Positions 36,747-46,337 of a stretch of 64,000 nucleotides of DNA are shown piece by piece; within the stretch, counting starts at the first letter, position 1, and every line of letters starts with the position of its first letter. Position numbers and translations under genes: made by a program. Source of the stretch: Desulfobacula sp. Lineage in GTDB: Bacteria; Desulfobacterota; Desulfobacteria; Desulfobacterales; Desulfobacteraceae. The stretch covers positions 1 through 64,000 of the forward strand of contig JAMPXP010000022.1 in assembly GCA_023701135.1 (NCBI GenBank), written 5' to 3'. The notes below the pieces were generated by a model. It saw nothing but the letters and a program-made list of their open reading frames with translations, searched no databases and was not told where the DNA came from.

Positions 36747-39152
36747 ATGGCCGGTCCCGTCATTGCAAAACGCCTGGAAATCAGCGGCGTGGTTCAAGGT
36801 GTCGGGTTCAGGCCTTTTTTATTTTCCCTTGCCGAAAAATATGGTCTCAAGGGCGAGGTGTCCAATACCTCCGCCGGGGTCAGCCTTGTCCTGGAGGGGG
36901 CGGAGCAGGACATTGGCCGTTTCTCCATCGACCTTGTTGAAAAAACGCCTTTGCTGGCCTCGGTGACCGGGATTGTGACCTTCCGGGCCGAGCCCCGGAA
37001 TTTTTCTTCATTTCAGATCATGGACAGCAAGCGTTCCGGCAGCCGGGCCACCCTGATTTCCCCGGATGTCAGCGTCTGCCCGGACTGCCTTCTGGAAATG
37101 AAGGACCCGTCGGACCGGCGGTTTGAATATCCTTTCATCAACTGCACCAATTGCGGCCCGCGGTTCACCATCATCGAAGACATTCCCTATGACCGGCCCA
37201 GGACCTCCATGAAGGGGTTTGAGATGTGCCCGGCCTGCCGGGCCGAGTATGATGATCCCCGGAACCGCAGGTTCCACGCCCAGCCCAATGCCTGTCCCGT
37301 CTGCGGTCCTGAAGCCTTTTTGACGGACCGGGAGGGCAGAAGGGTCAGCGTTGGGTCCGGTGCGGAAGGCTCCAGGGATGCCATAGCACTGGCGGCCCGG
37401 TTTCTGGGAGAGGGCCGGATCATGGCCGTCAAGGGGCTGGGCGGGTTTCACCTGGCCTGTGATGCCTCCCATGAAGAGGCCGTGAAGACCCTGAGGCAGA
37501 GAAAAAACCGACCCCACAAGCCCTTTGCCCTCATGGCGGCTTCGGATTCCGTTCTCTTTGACCATGTCCATGTCAGTGAAACGGAAAAGGCGCTATTGAA
37601 TTCCTATCACCGGCCCATTGTGATTTTAAGGAAAAAAGAGGCAGGACAGGCAAGGCCCGGCGGCCCGGCACGGGGCGTGGCCCCCTTTAATCCATGCCTC
37701 GGCATCATGCTGCCCTATACGCCCCTGCATTATCTTCTCCTTGAAAAGGGGCCCTCCGTCCTGGTCATGACCAGCGGCAACCGCTCCGGGGAGCCGCTTT
37801 CCATCGACAATGAAGACGCCTTGCAGGCCTTTGCCCATATTGCCGATTATTTTTTGCTGCACAACCGGGATATCTATTTCCGGGCCGATGATTCCATTGT
37901 CCGGATCCAGGCCGGGAAGCCCCGGTTTTTAAGGCGCTCCAGGGGCTATGCCCCCCTGCCCCTGGTCCTGGATCAAAAGCTGCCGAAAATCCTGGCCTGC
38001 GGAGCAGGGCTGAAAAACACCATCTGTCTCACAAGGGAGAACCAGGCCTTTTTAAGCCAGCACATCGGCGACCTGTTTAATGTGAAAACCCATGAATTTT
38101 ATAAGGCCTGCATCCATCATCTGAAAAAAATCACGGATATCGAGCCGGGCCTCATGGCCCATGACCTTCATCCAGGGTATATGAGTACGGCCTGGGCCCT
38201 GGAGCAGACGGGGGTCAAAATGATCGGGGTCCAGCATCACCATGCCCATGCCGCGGCCTGCATGGCGGAAAACGGCCTGGACGAGCCTGTGCTGGCCGTT
38301 ACCCTGGACGGCACCGGTTACGGAACCGACGGCCATATCTGGGGCGGGGAAATCCTTTTGTGCGATCGGGCAGGCTTCCGGCGCAAGGCCCATCTGTCCT
38401 ATGTCCGGATGCCGGGAGGGGATGCGGCGGTGCGGGAGCCCTGGCGCATGGCGGCCTCAATCCTGTATGAGGCCTTTGGAAGGAATTTTTTAAACCTGGA
38501 CCTTCCCTATATCAAAGAGATGGACAGGGAAAACCTGGACTTTGTGGTGCAGATGATGGAAAAGAATCTGAACTGCCCCCTGACGTCCAGTTGCGGAAGG
38601 CTTTTTGATGCCGTGGCCTCCCTTTTGTGCGTCCGCCATGAGATCACCCATGAGAGCCAGGCCGCCATGGAGCTGGAGGCCCTGGCCCACGAAGGCATAA
38701 GCAGGCAGGGCCTGGAAGGTAAAAGTTTAGGTAGTGACGGCCTGAGCAGGGAAGACCTGGAAAATGAAGACCCGGAAGGGAAAGGCTATGATTTCCAGAT
38801 GACCCGGGACCCGGATGATCCGGCGAATCCCTTCCGGATCGATTTTTTGCCCGCCGTCCGGGGGATGACGGCCGATCTTCAGAGCGGCCATTTGCCGGCG
38901 GCCGTGAGCCTGAGATTCCACCATACCCTGGTGGAGGCCTTTACGGCAGCGGCAAAAACCGTGGGCTGTGAAACCGGGGTGAAAACCGTTGTTCTCTCCG
39001 GGGGGGTCTTTAATAACGATCTCATTTTTACCCGGATGATCACCAGCCTTGAAAAAGAAGGCTTTACCGTATATACCCATACCCGGGTGCCCACCGGCGA
39101 CGGCGGCATCAGCCTGGGTCAGGCCGTGGTGGCGGCCGCTTTGGAAGGATGA
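36747..39152 (+). CDS. hypF: Carbamoyltransferase HypF
   Basis: This 801-residue maturation enzyme makes the thiocarbamate precursor of the cyanide ligands. Domains in order are acylphosphatase-like (GVVQGVGFRPFLF, about 13-25), a zinc-finger region (CPDCLLEM, NCTNCGPRFT, CPACRAEYD, CPVCGPEAF), a YrdC-like domain (HKPFALMA, SGNRSGEP), and the Kae1-like C-terminal domain with HHHAHAAACMAENG. An unusual Glu/Gly/Ser-rich insertion with two imperfect repeats of the form G-(L/I)-SR-(Q/E)-x-LE lies at about residues 650-685 (DNA about 38690-38790). HypC precedes it by five bases and hypD follows. Confidence 0.96.
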   Translation: MAGPVIAKRLEISGVVQGVGFRPFLFSLAEKYGLKGEVSNTSAGVSLVLEGAEQDIGRFSIDLVEKTPLLASVTGIVTFRAEPRNFSSFQIMDSKRSGSRATLISPDVSVCPDCLLEMKDPSDRRFEYPFINCTNCGPRFTIIEDIPYDRPRTSMKGFEMCPACRAEYDDPRNRRFHAQPNACPVCGPEAFLTDREGRRVSVGSGAEGSRDAIALAARFLGEGRIMAVKGLGGFHLACDASHEEAVKTLRQRKNRPHKPFALMAASDSVLFDHVHVSETEKALLNSYHRPIVILRKKEAGQARPGGPARGVAPFNPCLGIMLPYTPLHYLLLEKGPSVLVMTSGNRSGEPLSIDNEDALQAFAHIADYFLLHNRDIYFRADDSIVRIQAGKPRFLRRSRGYAPLPLVLDQKLPKILACGAGLKNTICLTRENQAFLSQHIGDLFNVKTHEFYKACIHHLKKITDIEPGLMAHDLHPGYMSTAWALEQTGVKMIGVQHHHAHAAACMAENGLDEPVLAVTLDGTGYGTDGHIWGGEILLCDRAGFRRKAHLSYVRMPGGDAAVREPWRMAASILYEAFGRNFLNLDLPYIKEMDRENLDFVVQMMEKNLNCPLTSSCGRLFDAVASLLCVRHEITHESQAAMELEALAHEGISRQGLEGKSLGSDGLSREDLENEDPEGKGYDFQMTRDPDDPANPFRIDFLPAVRGMTADLQSGHLPAAVSLRFHHTLVEAFTAAAKTVGCETGVKTVVLSGGVFNNDLIFTRMITSLEKEGFTVYTHTRVPTGDGGISLGQAVVAAALEG

Positions 39153-39159
39153 GTCACTC

Positions 39160-40245
39160 ATGACCATGAAATATGTTGAAGAATACAGGGATCCGGGCCT
39201 TGCAAAGGGCCTTGCGGAAAAAATCCACGGCATCAGCAAAAAAAAGCTGAGGCTCATGGAGGTCTGCGGCACCCATACCATGTCCATTTTCCGGCACGGG
39301 ATCAGAAGCGTTTTGCCTCCCGGCATCACCCTCTTGTCCGGTCCGGGGTGCCCGGTCTGCGTCACGGCCCAGAAGGATATTGACGCCTTTGTGGAATTTG
39401 CCAGGCTCAAAAACGTCATTGTCACCACCTTCGGGGATCTCATCCGGGTGCCGGGGTCCGGGTCCAGCCTGGGCAGGGAAAAGGCTGAGGGGGCAGATGT
39501 GAGAATCGTCTATTCCATTTTTGATGCTGTGACTATTGCAGGGGAGAACAGGGACAAGGAAGTGGTATTCTGCGGGGTCGGTTTTGAAACCACCATCCCT
39601 ACCATTGCCGCCGGTATCCTCATGGCCCGGCAGGCAAAGTTGGATAATTTTTCCGTGTATTCGGCCAACAAGCTCACGCCCCCAGCCCTGGCCGCCCTCA
39701 TGGAAACCAAGGGGGTTGACATCAACGGCTTCATCCTGCCGGGCCATGTGTCCGTGATCACGGGGACCAATGCCTACCGGGCCACCTTTGAAAAATACGG
39801 TATCCCGTCCGTGATTTCCGGGTTTGAACCCATAGATATCCTCAAGGCCGTGCTTTTGCTGGTGGAGCAGAATGAAGAAGGCCGTCCCGCATTGGTCAAT
39901 GCCTATTCCAGGGCCGTGAGCGATGAGGGAAACCTTAAGGCCAAGGCCGTCATGAACCAGGTGTTTGAAGTGTGCGATGCCGTCTGGCGCGGGATCGGGG
40001 GAATCCCCTTCAGCGGCATGGGATTGAAAAAAGAATTTCAGGCCTTTGATGCGGCCCTGAAATTCGGCATGGACCTGCCCCATGTGCCCGAGCCCAGGGG
40101 CTGCGCCTGCGGCCAGATCCTCATGGGGCTGAAAACCCCGGAACAATGCAGCCTCTACAAGAAAAAATGCACGCCCATGACCCCTGTGGGTCCCTGTATG
40201 GTGTCCAGCGAAGGCTCCTGTGCGGCATTTTACAAATACGCGTAA
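39160..40245 (+). CDS. hypD: Hydrogenase maturation factor HypD
   Basis: This 361-residue protein is the [4Fe-4S] scaffold on which the Fe(CN)2CO unit is built with HypC. It has MEVCGTHTMSIFRHGI, SGPGCPVCVTAQ, GFETTIPTIAAG, and the C-terminal EPRGCACGQILMG with clustered cysteines. The frame is open upstream, but ATG 39160 (or 39166) after an AAGGA site is the family start. It lies eight bases after the hypF stop. Confidence 0.96.
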   Translation: MTMKYVEEYRDPGLAKGLAEKIHGISKKKLRLMEVCGTHTMSIFRHGIRSVLPPGITLLSGPGCPVCVTAQKDIDAFVEFARLKNVIVTTFGDLIRVPGSGSSLGREKAEGADVRIVYSIFDAVTIAGENRDKEVVFCGVGFETTIPTIAAGILMARQAKLDNFSVYSANKLTPPALAALMETKGVDINGFILPGHVSVITGTNAYRATFEKYGIPSVISGFEPIDILKAVLLLVEQNEEGRPALVNAYSRAVSDEGNLKAKAVMNQVFEVCDAVWRGIGGIPFSGMGLKKEFQAFDAALKFGMDLPHVPEPRGCACGQILMGLKTPEQCSLYKKKCTPMTPVGPCMVSSEGSCAAFYKYA

Positions 40246-40265
40246 CCCATGAATCGAGAAAAACC

Positions 40266-41276
40266 ATGACCCAAGAAAAAGTATTGCTGGACCACGGCTC
40301 CGGGGGCAAAGTCTCCCATTCCATGTTTTCCGACCTCATCCTCCCGCTTTTCTCAAGCCCTGAACTGTTGCAGCAGGATGACGGCGCCGTCCTGGACATC
40401 GCCGGGGCAAGGCTGGCCTTTTCAACGGATTCCTATGTGGTGGACCCCATCTTTTTCCCCGGCGGCAATATCGGGGACCTGGCCGTCAACGGTACGGTCA
40501 ATGATATTGCCATGTGCGGTGCCGTTCCGAAATTCATCAGCGTGGGCCTGATCCTTGAAGAAGGATTTCCCGTTGAGGATTTAAAAATCATCCTGGAGAG
40601 CATGGCCCGGGCAGCCCAAAAAGCCGGGGTCAGGATCGTCACCGGCGATACCAAGGTTGTGCCCAGGGGCAAGGCGGACAAGATTTTCATCAATACCTCG
40701 GGCATCGGGGTGATCCCGCCCCATGTCCAGGTCTCCGGGGCCAATGCCGAACCCGGCGACGCCGTGATCCTCAGCGGTACCCTGGCCGATCACGGGATCA
40801 CGGTCCTGAGCACCCGGGAGGGCTTGAAATTTGATTCCGACATCCAAACCGATTCCGCACCCTTGAACGGCATGGCCCAGGCCATCCTGAATTCCGGTTG
40901 CCGGGTTCATGTGCTGCGGGATCCCACCCGGGGCGGCCTGGGCACGACCCTGAATGAGATCGCGGCCCAGTCCGGGGTGGAAATCCTCATTGATGAAGCC
41001 TGTCTGCCCATCCGGGGTCCGGTCCGGGGAACCTGCGAACTCCTGGGCTTTGATCCTCTTTATATTGCCAATGAAGGCAAACTGGTGGCCTTTGTTCCCC
41101 AGGCGGACGCCCAAAAAGTCCTTGAGATCATTCAGGACAATGAATATGGAAAAGAGGCCGCCGTCATCGGTCGGGTGAGCCGGAAAAGCCCGGGCAAGGT
41201 GTTTCTGAAAACCTTTATCGGCGGCACAAGACTTGTGGACATGCTGACCGGCGAGCAGTTGCCCAGGATCTGCTGA
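40266..41276 (+). CDS. hypE: Hydrogenase maturation factor HypE
   Basis: This 336-residue PurM-like ATPase dehydrates the thiocarboxamide on its own C-terminal cysteine to a thiocyanate. The final residues PRIC place that cysteine at the last position (C336), as required. LLDHGSGGKVSHSMF, STDSYVVDPIFFPGG, and DPTRGGLGTTLNEIA are standard. The start is ATG 40266, with AGAAAAACC upstream; the longer frame runs into hypD and is not used. Confidence 0.96.
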   Translation: MTQEKVLLDHGSGGKVSHSMFSDLILPLFSSPELLQQDDGAVLDIAGARLAFSTDSYVVDPIFFPGGNIGDLAVNGTVNDIAMCGAVPKFISVGLILEEGFPVEDLKIILESMARAAQKAGVRIVTGDTKVVPRGKADKIFINTSGIGVIPPHVQVSGANAEPGDAVILSGTLADHGITVLSTREGLKFDSDIQTDSAPLNGMAQAILNSGCRVHVLRDPTRGGLGTTLNEIAAQSGVEILIDEACLPIRGPVRGTCELLGFDPLYIANEGKLVAFVPQADAQKVLEIIQDNEYGKEAAVIGRVSRKSPGKVFLKTFIGGTRLVDMLTGEQLPRIC

Positions 41277-43113: not shown

Positions 43114-43587
43114 TTATGCCAGAAGGTCCTCAATATGTTTTTTGGCGGTTTTCACAAAGCCGGGAAAGGCCCTGGCCAGGGTGGGGGTCAGTTCCGTGCC
43201 CCAGTCTATTTTCTCAGGTTCGATGCCCACGACCTTGAGGGATGGGCGGTGGCCCCTCATTTCCGCCATGCCGAGGGAGTCCAGCAGGTCCACGTCGTGA
43301 AGGGAGAGGACCTGTTTTTTGTTCTGCACCAGGTCTGCTTCATCCAGGCTGTAGATGGTTCCGGCAGGATGTCCGGCCCGGACCACATCCAGAACCAGCA
43401 ATTTTTCATATTGTTCAAACAGGAAAAAAATATCCTGGGTAAAGGTGCCGCCGTCGATGAAATCCACCCGGCTTTCATCATAGGTGTCTTTTTCTTTTAA
43501 GAGCTCATAAATCGCATGAACCCCGATGCCTTCATCCATCATGAGGGTATTGCCCACCCCCAGAACCAGGAGTTTTTTCATTTCCAT
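43114..43587 (-). CDS. Hydrogenase maturation protease (HysD/HybD type)
   Basis: This 157-residue endopeptidase trims the C-terminus of the hydrogenase large subunit after the nickel site is filled. It begins KKLLVLGVGNTLMMDEGIGVHA, with the nickel-sensing acidic residue in MMDEGIG. LLVLDVVRAGHPAGTIY supplies the second Asp, and LHDVDLLDSLGMAEMRG the conserved His. It lies just beyond the hysA terminator. The likely target is HysA, where cleavage after His487 would release the last 16 residues. Confidence 0.93.
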   Translation of the reverse strand: MEMKKLLVLGVGNTLMMDEGIGVHAIYELLKEKDTYDESRVDFIDGGTFTQDIFFLFEQYEKLLVLDVVRAGHPAGTIYSLDEADLVQNKKQVLSLHDVDLLDSLGMAEMRGHRPSLKVVGIEPEKIDWGTELTPTLARAFPGFVKTAKKHIEDLLA

Positions 43588-43704: not shown

Positions 43705-45216
43705 TTATAATGGAAGTTCCACTTTAATTTCTCTGTTGTTGTCTGCGTCCAGCACGTGGACGGCGCAACCCAGTCACGGGTCAAAGGAGCGGATGAGCCG
43801 CCCCACATTCACCGGGTTTGCCGCATCGGGAACCGGAACGCCGATGAGGGCTTTTTCCATGGGTCCCTTCTGGCCCATGTCGTCCATGGGGTTGGCATTC
43901 CAGATGGTGGCCGATGTGACCTGGTAGTTGGCGATTTTCTTGTCTTTGATGTTGACATAGTGAAGCAGGGCGCCGCGGGGGGCTTCGGTCAGGCCGAGAC
44001 CTTCGGCTGAATCCGGAACCGGAACCGGAACATAGGTGTCTTTGCCGGGCTTGACTTCCGAGAGCCACTGTTCAACGGCATTGGCCACCATGACGGTTTC
44101 TTCGGCCCTTGCCACATGTCTTCCCAGGATGGAGAAGGCGGCGTCGCCGATATCCCGCATCTTTTTAACACCCAGTTTTTCCTGGCCGATCTTGGACAGT
44201 TCAGGGTTGGTGACCCACATTCTGGCAAGCGGGCCTGCCTCATGGGGTTTGCCGTTATACCGGGGGGCCTTGATAAAACTGTAGGCCCCGGCTTTGTTCG
44301 GATTGGGAACGGTTTTGCCTTCCCTGGGGTTCAGGCCCGTGGTGGCATCATCAAAGAAAGAATATTTGACATATTCCTTGATCAGGGCCGGGTCAACGGG
44401 GTAGTCCTTGCCGTCGGTGAAAACGCCTCTTTTCAGGAGGGTATTGCCCTTGTCATCCATGGGGAAGACGCCCCAGGCCACGCAGTTTTTATAGCCCCCG
44501 CCGGTTTTGAGAAGGTCGCCGTAGGGACCGGCCAGGAGGTAAACCAGGGGAACATATTTTTCCATGACGAATTTTTTGACTTTTTTGAAACGCTCGGCAT
44601 AGGCAACGAGTTTTTCCTGGGTCGGGATTTCCGATGCGCCGCCAACGACAAGTCCCGGAACATGGGGCATTTTGCCGCCGAAAAGAGCCACCATTTCATG
44701 GCAGATCTTTCTCATTTCAAGGGCTTCCAGGTACTGGCCCACGGCCACGTCATTAATGTCCTTGGGAACGCGGACATCGTTTTTGGCATAGCGGGGGATA
44801 AAGGGGGCCGTGTCCGGACCGTTCACATAGTCCAGGGCCGCCAGGTGATAAAAATGAAGAATATGGGACTGGAGATAATTGGCCCCGAAGATCAGGTTCC
44901 GGGTGATTCTGCCGTTATCCGTCAGTTTGACCTTGAATGCATCATCCAGGGCCAGGACCGATGCCGTTGCATGGGCCGTGGGGCAAACACCGCAGATTCT
45001 CTGGGTAATCTGGGACGCATCCCTGGGGTCCCGGCCGATCAATATCTGCTCAAAACCGCGGTACATGCCGCCGAATACTCTGGCATCGGAGACAACGCCG
45101 TCCTTGACCTCTACTTCTACTTTGAGGTGCCCCTCAATCCTGGTGACAGGATCAATGGCAACCTTGATTTTTGTTCCGGCTCCAACCGGAGCTGCTTGTG
45201 GGGTACAGCCTGCCAT
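43705..45216 (-). CDS. hysA: [NiFeSe] hydrogenase large subunit with UGA-encoded selenocysteine
   Basis: The reading frame has an internal TGA at 43774-43776 that should be read as selenocysteine, giving 503 residues. The N-terminal nickel motif is RICGVCPTAHA (C75, C78). The C-terminal nickel motif reads FDP-Sec-LGCAVHV, with U481 and C484, exactly the DPUxxCxxH form of [NiFeSe] enzymes and closely similar to the Desulfovibrio HysA end. Sixteen residues after His487 form the removable tail. The start MAGCTPQAAP also matches HysA, where the cysteine is a lipid-attachment candidate. An AAGGAGG site precedes the ATG. The enzyme oxidises or evolves H2 in the periplasm with HysB. Standard gene calling would stop 23 codons early. 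Confidence 0.97.
43746..43776 (-). promoter_or_regulatory. Selenocysteine codon and bacterial SECIS hairpin
   Basis: The UGA (43774-43776) is followed after 11 bases by a 17-base hairpin, CGUCCA-CGUGC-UGGACG (43762 down to 43746), with a six-base-pair stem and a five-base loop that contains GU. Both the 11-base spacing and 17-base size equal those of the minimal E. coli fdhF element bound by SelB. A SelB-type factor must be encoded elsewhere in the genome. Confidence 0.9.
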
Positions 45217-45258: not shown

Positions 45259-46215
45259 TTATGCCGGTTCATAGAAGGGTGAAGATGCATCCGGGAAACC
45301 GGGCTCAACACAACCAATGCAGACTGCGTTGTCCACACACCAGTTCAGACCGCTGTTCCATTTGCGGGTATAACAGTCGGCAAAGGTGCTGGGGCCTTTA
45401 CAACCCAATTCAATACGGCAGCCTTTGGGGTCTGAAAGCTTATCCGCCAGGGTGCCGGCGTCGTATTCTTTCAGATGGGGGCAGTTGTCATGGATATTCT
45501 CGCCAAAGAAGAGTTTGGGGCGGCCGTTGTCATCCAGTTCGGGAAGGCCTTTGGTCAAGAGATGAACAATGGAGCCGACGATCCAGTCCGGATGCGACGG
45601 GCAACCGGGGATATTGACCACCGGGGTCTTGATGCCGTATTTCTTGAAGACATCCATGACGCCGGTGGCGCCGGTGACATTTCCCTTGGCGGCGGGGATT
45701 CCGCCGTAGGTGGCGCAGGTTCCGACGGCAATCACGCTGCCGGCCTTTGCCCCTATTTCTTTGGTCAGATCCAGCATGGTGATTTCCTTGTGGTTCATTT
45801 CACCCACGATGCAGTATTTTCCATCTGCAGCCAGGGGAATGGCGCCTTCAACCACCAGGGAGAATTTTCCCTTGTATTCTTCGGCGACGGCGTAAAGGTT
45901 TTCCATGGCGGTCTGGCCTTCGGAGGCCATGACCGTGGGGTGGAACTGAAGGCTGATCACCTTGAGCAGGATGTCGGCAATGGACGGGTCAACGCTGTTC
46001 AGAAGAGAAACCGAACAGCCTGTGCAGCCCTGTCCCTGGATCCAGATAACCGGATGGGTTTTCAAGGCTTTTTCAAGGGCTGAAACAAGGGCGGGATTGA
46101 ACATCTGGGAAATACCGATCCCGGCTGCTGTCCCTGTAGCGGCTTTCAGAAAGGTTCTTCTGGAAACCCCTGTTTTCTTTTGTTGCACATCGGGCAACGT
46201 TTGTTCATCTTTCAC
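45259..46215 (-). CDS. hysB: [NiFeSe] hydrogenase small subunit
   Basis: This protein of about 318 residues has a twin-arginine signal (SRRTFLKAATGTAAG) that exports the folded heterodimer. Proximal-cluster cysteines are in WIQGQGCTGCSVSLLN, and further cluster ligands in AVGTCATYGGIPAA, NIPGCPSHPDW and the C-terminal NAVCIGCVEPGFPD. GTG 46215 is preferred over GTG 46221 because AAGGAGG lies five bases before it. The gene is followed by hysA after 42 bases. With a close resemblance to Desulfovibrio HysB, it transfers electrons from the nickel site to periplasmic cytochrome c3. Confidence 0.95.
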   Translation of the reverse strand: MKDEQTLPDVQQKKTGVSRRTFLKAATGTAAGIGISQMFNPALVSALEKALKTHPVIWIQGQGCTGCSVSLLNSVDPSIADILLKVISLQFHPTVMASEGQTAMENLYAVAEEYKGKFSLVVEGAIPLAADGKYCIVGEMNHKEITMLDLTKEIGAKAGSVIAVGTCATYGGIPAAKGNVTGATGVMDVFKKYGIKTPVVNIPGCPSHPDWIVGSIVHLLTKGLPELDDNGRPKLFFGENIHDNCPHLKEYDAGTLADKLSDPKGCRIELGCKGPSTFADCYTRKWNSGLNWCVDNAVCIGCVEPGFPDASSPFYEPA

Positions 46216-46308
46216 GGGCACCTCCTTGATGCTGTTAAAGGTCTAACACACTTATGGCTGATTGCAGAAGGCAACGCCTCTTGCCTCCTGCGAAAAAATG
46301 ATTGGGCA

Positions 46309-46337
46309 AGTATATAAAGGGAAATAAGGGCTGTCAA
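46309..46337 (-). promoter_or_regulatory. Sigma-70 promoter for hysBA
   Basis: On the leftward strand a perfect TTGACA (46337 down to 46332), a 17-base spacer and TATACT (46314 down to 46309) precede hysB by 93 bases. The leader contains AGGCAA-CGCCTC-TTGCCT (46269-46286), a six-base-pair hairpin that may affect translation or stability. No strong sigma-54 (GG-N10-GC) site was recognised. Confidence 0.75.

Follow-up and report, generated by a model that had tools for sequence, protein, structure and literature searches.

The hys locus and its interrupted frame

The minus strand of the window (the whole 64,000-nucleotide stretch of Desulfobacula DNA analysed here) carries hysB (45259–46215), hysA (43705–45216) and hysD (43114–43587), which would encode the small subunit, the large subunit and the maturation protease of a [NiFeSe] hydrogenase. 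The hysA frame begins with an ATG at 45216, is open for 480 codons (45216–43777), meets a TGA (43776–43774) and is then open to a TAA (43707–43705). In the stretch 43708–45216 this TGA, codon 481, is the sole interruption, and both it and the TAA lie where the first-pass annotation had placed them. With the TGA taken as selenocysteine (Sec), the product is 503 residues long, carries Sec481 and has the C-terminus IRSFDP-U-LGCAVHVLDADNNREIKVELPL, which ends at the TAA. The UGA occupies the first position of the nickel motif (Sec/Cys)-x-x-Cys-x-x-His, which in HysA reads DP-U-LGCAVH. The proposed read-through sequence DP-Sec-LGCAVHV is present, but the count of 19 further residues is wrong from either starting point: 22 residues follow the Sec, and 15 follow ULGCAVHV.

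The extended HysA scores 862.5 bits against the NCBI model for NiFeSe HysA (NF045518, cut-off 780). The adjoining small subunit and maturation protease are also of the NiFeSe type, both exceeding their NCBI cut-offs (HysB, 535.8 bits against NF045520, cut-off 470; HysD, 220.9 bits against NF045519, cut-off 190). HysB has a twin-arginine-like start (SRRTFLK), and the GTG at 46215, which lies behind an AAGGAGG, is a likelier start codon than the gene caller's GTG at 46221. The best PDB match of HysA is HysAB of Desulfovibrio vulgaris Hildenborough (2wpn_B, aligned over residues 1–487, E 2.8e-224), and the Desulfomicrobium baculatum enzyme (1cc1_L) aligns with HysA residues 7–487 (E 2.1e-221). 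HysA departs from these two by no more than small insertions and the usual divergence of sequence. The 2wpn_B chain has an X (modified residue) at the place of Sec481, ends at the equivalent of His487 and shares the MxGCTP start, its MSGCTP being close to the MAGCTP of HysA. The M-x-G-C pattern is found near the N-terminus in 49 of the 57 distinct hysA genes collected here. The [NiFeSe] enzyme of D. vulgaris is a lipoprotein anchored at that N-terminal region.

Since the 2wpn_B chain stops at its counterpart of His487, the last 16 residues of HysA are expected to be cut off. This C-terminal tail (codons 488–503, minus strand, 43708–43755) would be removed by HysD after His487, as in the family at large. 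Its sequence includes VLDADNN, where 5jsu_B, an unprocessed chain of the D. vulgaris enzyme, has VLHAESG. According to the available part of one paper, maturation of such hydrogenases requires cleavage of the C-terminal tail (PMC10362691).

The plus strand of the window carries open frames for hypD (39049–40245; TIGR00075, 460.3 bits, cut-off 192.8, match from residue 39) and hypE (40146–41276; TIGR02124, 453.1 bits, cut-off 251.6, match from residue 45), and both genes probably start at a codon inside these frames. The Fe(CN)2CO unit of hydrogenases is made by Hyp proteins. Upstream of hysB, a weakly supported promoter-like site on the minus strand (46309–46337; TTGACA, 17 nt, TATACT) agrees with 11 of 12 consensus positions; the region contains two such sites, with 3.0 expected from shuffled sequence. 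In Desulfobacter-type loci (L042, L080), hysD starts almost directly after hysA.

Between hysA and hysD of the window lies a strong terminator-like hairpin (43681–43653, minus strand) with a three-base loop and 12 Watson-Crick pairs, or 13 pairs when G-T is counted; it is the 12-bp-stem terminator that had been noticed past the extended stop. A comparable hairpin is found in 23 of 54 distinct downstream stretches. Its position, less than 100 bases downstream of the UGA, would suit a UGA that is a genuine stop, a mutation in a decaying gene or an error of sequencing, in which case hysA would be truncated or mis-read and would be without its final nickel ligands. Standard gene calling, which ends the frame at the UGA, agrees with such a truncation as well.

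Conservation of the UGA and of the codons that follow

A HysA match of at least 71% identity is present in 26 of the 58 relatives searched (own genome included), and each match has one internal TGA. These matches come from 19 of the 26 genomes of the genus and from seven of nine others of the family, and the HysA proteins of the closest Desulfobacula MAGs are 98–99% identical to that of the window. A second collection yielded 79 loci and shows the gene in cultured relatives too, Desulfospira joergensenii and Desulfobacter latus among them. All 82 motif-bearing loci at 61% identity or more have the TGA followed by an open tail; the two collections overlap and include the window's own gene, and the 82 loci represent 57 distinct genes and 52 distinct 69-nt tails. 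Four loci were dropped, three of them similar fragments that do not contain the motif (L101, L104, L112) and the fourth likewise devoid of a usable motif (L155). At 24 more distant motif-bearing loci (47% identity or less) the Sec position is occupied by TGC or TGT.

Silent differences were scored in 400 codon columns over the 57 distinct genes, with a mean of 0.493. Silent variation is zero in five of these columns (482, 485, 487, 488 and 490), all of them just past the UGA. Codons 485–490 have a silent mean of 0.089, and none of the 414 other six-codon windows, which start at codons 2–477, is as low (minimum 0.178). Protein function offers no explanation for such constraint at silent sites, which points to an RNA element. 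The same data make a truncated or mis-read hysA extremely improbable: the UGA and a conserved open tail recur in all 82 motif-bearing loci, and nowhere in the gene are silent sites more constrained than past the UGA, whereas a dead tail would drift.

Seven of the 26 genomes of the genus have no close HysA match (G001, G002, G008, G012, G017, G021, G024), and all seven have SelA. The presence of HysA across the genus is patchy, of which incomplete assemblies are perhaps part of the cause. SelA exceeds its cut-off in 56 of the 58 relatives, so its co-occurrence with hysA is uninformative and was dropped as evidence. In one genome (G014) hysA is present and no selA was found, perhaps because that assembly is incomplete. 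More distant hydrogenase matches in relatives (for example G027:C29:178843-179331 and G018:C251:29384-29827) also have one TGA towards the C-terminus, which may be either a Sec codon or a true stop.

A SECIS-type hairpin and its coupling to the tail predicted to be cleaved

Eleven bases past the UGA, the hysA transcript can form a hairpin (43762–43746, minus strand) with a 6-bp stem (CGTCCA/TGGACG) and a 5-base loop (CGTGC), as the first-pass annotation had described. A 2026 review, in its available part, gives the rule for bacterial SECIS elements as a loop of 3–9 nt with a G in its first two positions, a stem of 4–16 bp, 16–37 nt between UGA and loop, and a folding energy no higher than −7.5 kcal/mol (PMC13188914). 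The hysA hairpin agrees with this rule (loop of 5, CGUGC; stem of 6; spacing of 17; −15.2 kcal/mol for a 52-nt stretch). The extra loop-internal pair (N1-N2), which is frequent and optional in the published model, is absent, with C standing opposite C in CGUGC. The hysA loop differs from the loops that follow the UGA in the genome's remaining Sec genes, with no loop sequence found in common, and an Rfam search of the window gave no match at gathering score.

The hairpin is part of the minimum-energy fold of the 52-nt stretch. The energy of that fold is unremarkable (z −1.51; 17 of 200 shuffled sequences fold equally well) and was dropped as proof of a SECIS element. In some relatives (e.g. L026, L040, L071) the minimum-energy fold of 47 nt is different. 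The exact offset and loop with six stacked pairs, G-U allowed, occur after seven of the 2572 TGA triplets that the window contains, counting both strands; with Watson-Crick pairs alone, the hysA TGA is the only one. A broader SECIS-like rule (a hairpin with six or more Watson-Crick pairs and an apical G at 16–37 nt) is satisfied by 47 of the 2572 TGAs (1.8%). Among the 63 window TGAs that have at least 100 open codons before them and at least 15 after, the one in hysA alone satisfies it. Hairpin searches by themselves yield many false positives, as the available part of an older paper has it (PMC1242214), and for that reason weight was placed on conservation.

The pairing was compared in a set that includes loci from a wider search of the phylum (395 genomes). 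Every one of the six pairs can form in 55 of the 56 distinct Sec sequences, the exception being L152 with five. The 32 distinct Cys homologues, of which those from the wider search are Cys by selection (its motif was limited to Sec or Cys), have six pairs in one case, five in another and four or fewer in 30. With the U of the UGA counted as base 0, pair 17/27 is C-G, G-C or T-A and is never broken in the 70 genes placed on a tree, and pair 14/30 is C-G in 64 of them, T-A in four, T-G in one and A-A in one. The quick tree of 90 rows, which came with a long-branch warning, left out identical proteins and those under 300 residues and reduced the far Cys rows L114–L128 to three (L114, L116, L120), requires two changes at pair 17/27 and three at pair 14/30, one of the latter a broken pair. 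Compensatory changes are found at these two pairs, in few events and with a clean pattern; the remaining four pairs are invariant and therefore carry no covariation signal. Taken with the published rule, this conservation supports a bacterial SECIS element in the sequence of hysA, for which SelB binding and Sec insertion are predicted.

Base 17 is the third base of the Val486 codon and base 27 is the first base of codon 490, which is why codon 486 tracks residue 490. Throughout the 70 genes, Val486 is GTC where residue 490 is Asp (44 genes), GTG where it is His (25 genes) and GTT where it is Asn (one gene). The SECIS element spans the predicted cleavage site. On the 5' side its stem draws on a silent position of Val486, which stays in the mature enzyme, and on the 3' side it draws on residue 490, which belongs to the tail predicted to be removed. 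That a silent codon position is tied through the SECIS to a tail residue is the feature of greatest interest at the locus.

Two genomes from another family of the phylum (G130 and G242) each contain a UGA gene with 59% identity to HysA together with a Cys paralogue (L161, G130:C15:5940-7418, 55% identity to HysA; L162, G242:C197:21000-22457, 54% identity). Neither Cys paralogue has a SECIS-type hairpin, with two and three of the six pairs, respectively. Both score above the general model NF033181 and below the NiFeSe exception model, and their UGA sisters do likewise, so this cut-off does not separate Sec from Cys paralogues. In a more careful tree of 39 hand-picked rows, L161 and L162 fall inside the Sec clade (support 96/94), and of 200 bootstrap trees 3% unite the Sec sequences. 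The AU test does not reject a topology with every Sec row in a single group (p-AU 0.106). These placements hint at a Sec-to-Cys change and do not prove one.

It is about an even bet that the hairpin, not protein chemistry, sets residue 490 in this hydrogenase family, with the removable tail serving in part as free coding space for the SECIS, and that, separately, a Cys paralogue beside a Sec gene hints at a selenium-dependent switch or at Sec-to-Cys reversion.

Predicted selenocysteine decoding and the known [NiFeSe] hydrogenases

The genome assembly (4.8 Mb, 42 contigs, 98.87% complete) contains the complete Sec apparatus. The tRNA-Sec gene (selC, contig C10) reaches 76.8 bits (gathering score 47), SelB (C18) 352.9 bits (cut-off 242.25), SelA (C41) 612.9 bits (cut-off 267.9) and SelD (C39) 369.8 bits (cut-off 125). 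The same searches are not fully selective, exceeding their cut-offs in some of 14 control genomes (tRNA-Sec in five, SelB in two, SelA in one, SelD in two). The set of SelA, SelB, SelC and SelD that a Sec-containing HysA had been predicted to require is therefore present in the genome, including selB and selC, the absence of which would have spoken for a truncated gene. Further UGA-containing genes, for which a search had been suggested, number at least five at known Sec sites, namely selD and four genes of the formate dehydrogenase type. The in-frame UGA of selD lies in GAGUASK. Four of the 14 molybdopterin-domain matches have an in-frame TGA, in HCARLUH (twice), HCARTUH and HQARIUH, where the U stands at the Sec place of formate dehydrogenases. 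With HysA counted, the genome has at least six selenoprotein genes.

Two other [NiFe] hydrogenases are encoded in the genome. One lies near selD on the other strand and has Cys (L130, G000:C39:7000-13500). The large subunit of the other (L131, G000:C29:28000-31500) ends in DPCIACAVH with a TAA directly after it and has no extension to cleave.

The UGA might also be read through with another residue, such as Cys or Trp carried by a near-cognate tRNA, to give a [NiFe]-type enzyme. A Cys product could work, given that the 24 distant motif-bearing homologues carry Cys, and partial replacement under selenium shortage is conceivable. The presence of SelA, SelB, SelD and tRNA-Sec argues against read-through of this kind, as does the constrained SECIS-type hairpin, for which unspecific read-through has no need, and we consider it very improbable. 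Truncation, sequencing error and unspecific read-through were rejected on the conservation and the Sec apparatus. Selenocysteine at the UGA, as first proposed, is strongly supported by that apparatus, by the NF045518 score and by the UGA, tail and hairpin common to the relatives. It is almost certain that the hysA product is the large subunit of a [NiFeSe] hydrogenase located in the periplasm and that UGA481 is read as Sec by way of the SECIS.

In a Desulfobacula-type sulfate reducer, the ribosome would meet the UGA at codon 481 of hysA, and the hairpin 11 bases on would recruit SelB carrying Sec-tRNA-Sec. Selenocysteine would be inserted, and translation would continue for 22 residues to the TAA. 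Sec481 and Cys484 would help to hold the nickel, HypD, HypE and other Hyp proteins would supply the Fe(CN)2CO unit, and HysD would remove the last 16 residues after His487. The enzyme would carry out its H2 chemistry in the periplasm, by analogy with the known members of the family.

The available part of a 2016 paper reports [NiFeSe] large-subunit genes that are cut by an in-frame opal codon and equipped with a SECIS element (PMC4730141). Its predicted genes from Desulfotignum phosphitoxidans, Desulfobacter postgatei and Desulfobacterium autotrophicum, sister genera of similar sulfate reducers, have the opal codon, the open tail and the SECIS directly after it, as here; Desulfobacula is not among the names in that part of the paper. 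HysAB is also listed in the genome paper of D. phosphitoxidans, again in its available part (PMC4046663). For Desulfobacula-related marine bacteria, another partly available paper describes SelA, SelB, SelD, tRNA-Sec and UGA genes, including those of formate dehydrogenase and selenophosphate synthetase, and the hydrogenases named in that part are F420-reducing and methyl-viologen-reducing ones, not HysA (PMC8318568). In the literature that pairs Desulfobacula with NiFeSe or selenocysteine, we found no paper title on a Desulfobacula HysA. The selenium-containing [NiFe] hydrogenases of methanogens (VhuU/VhuA, FrhA) have Sec at the same ligand place as HysA. The HysA C-terminus matches VhuU weakly (27.5 bits, cut-off 70), far below the cut-offs of the methanogen families.

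With the sister-genus genes of 2016 and Sec decoding in Desulfobacula-related bacteria both in print, the kind of gene that hysA represents is already known. The enzyme can fairly be described as one of the rarer Se-dependent hydrogenases; its type is nevertheless a well-known one and, going by the available part of the 2016 paper, already on record in sister genera (PMC4730141). hysA is a sound and ordinary addition to the known [NiFeSe] hydrogenase family. In the comparative set, silent-site constraint and compensatory change provide evidence for the SECIS independently of fold energy. Because automatic gene calling stops at the UGA, the final nickel-ligand residues are lost and hysA would be mis-annotated as truncated. 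Read correctly, the gene would give this organism a selenium-dependent hydrogenase of the [NiFeSe] type, to which a review, in its available part, attributes high H2 production together with a reduced sensitivity to O2 (PMC10779653).
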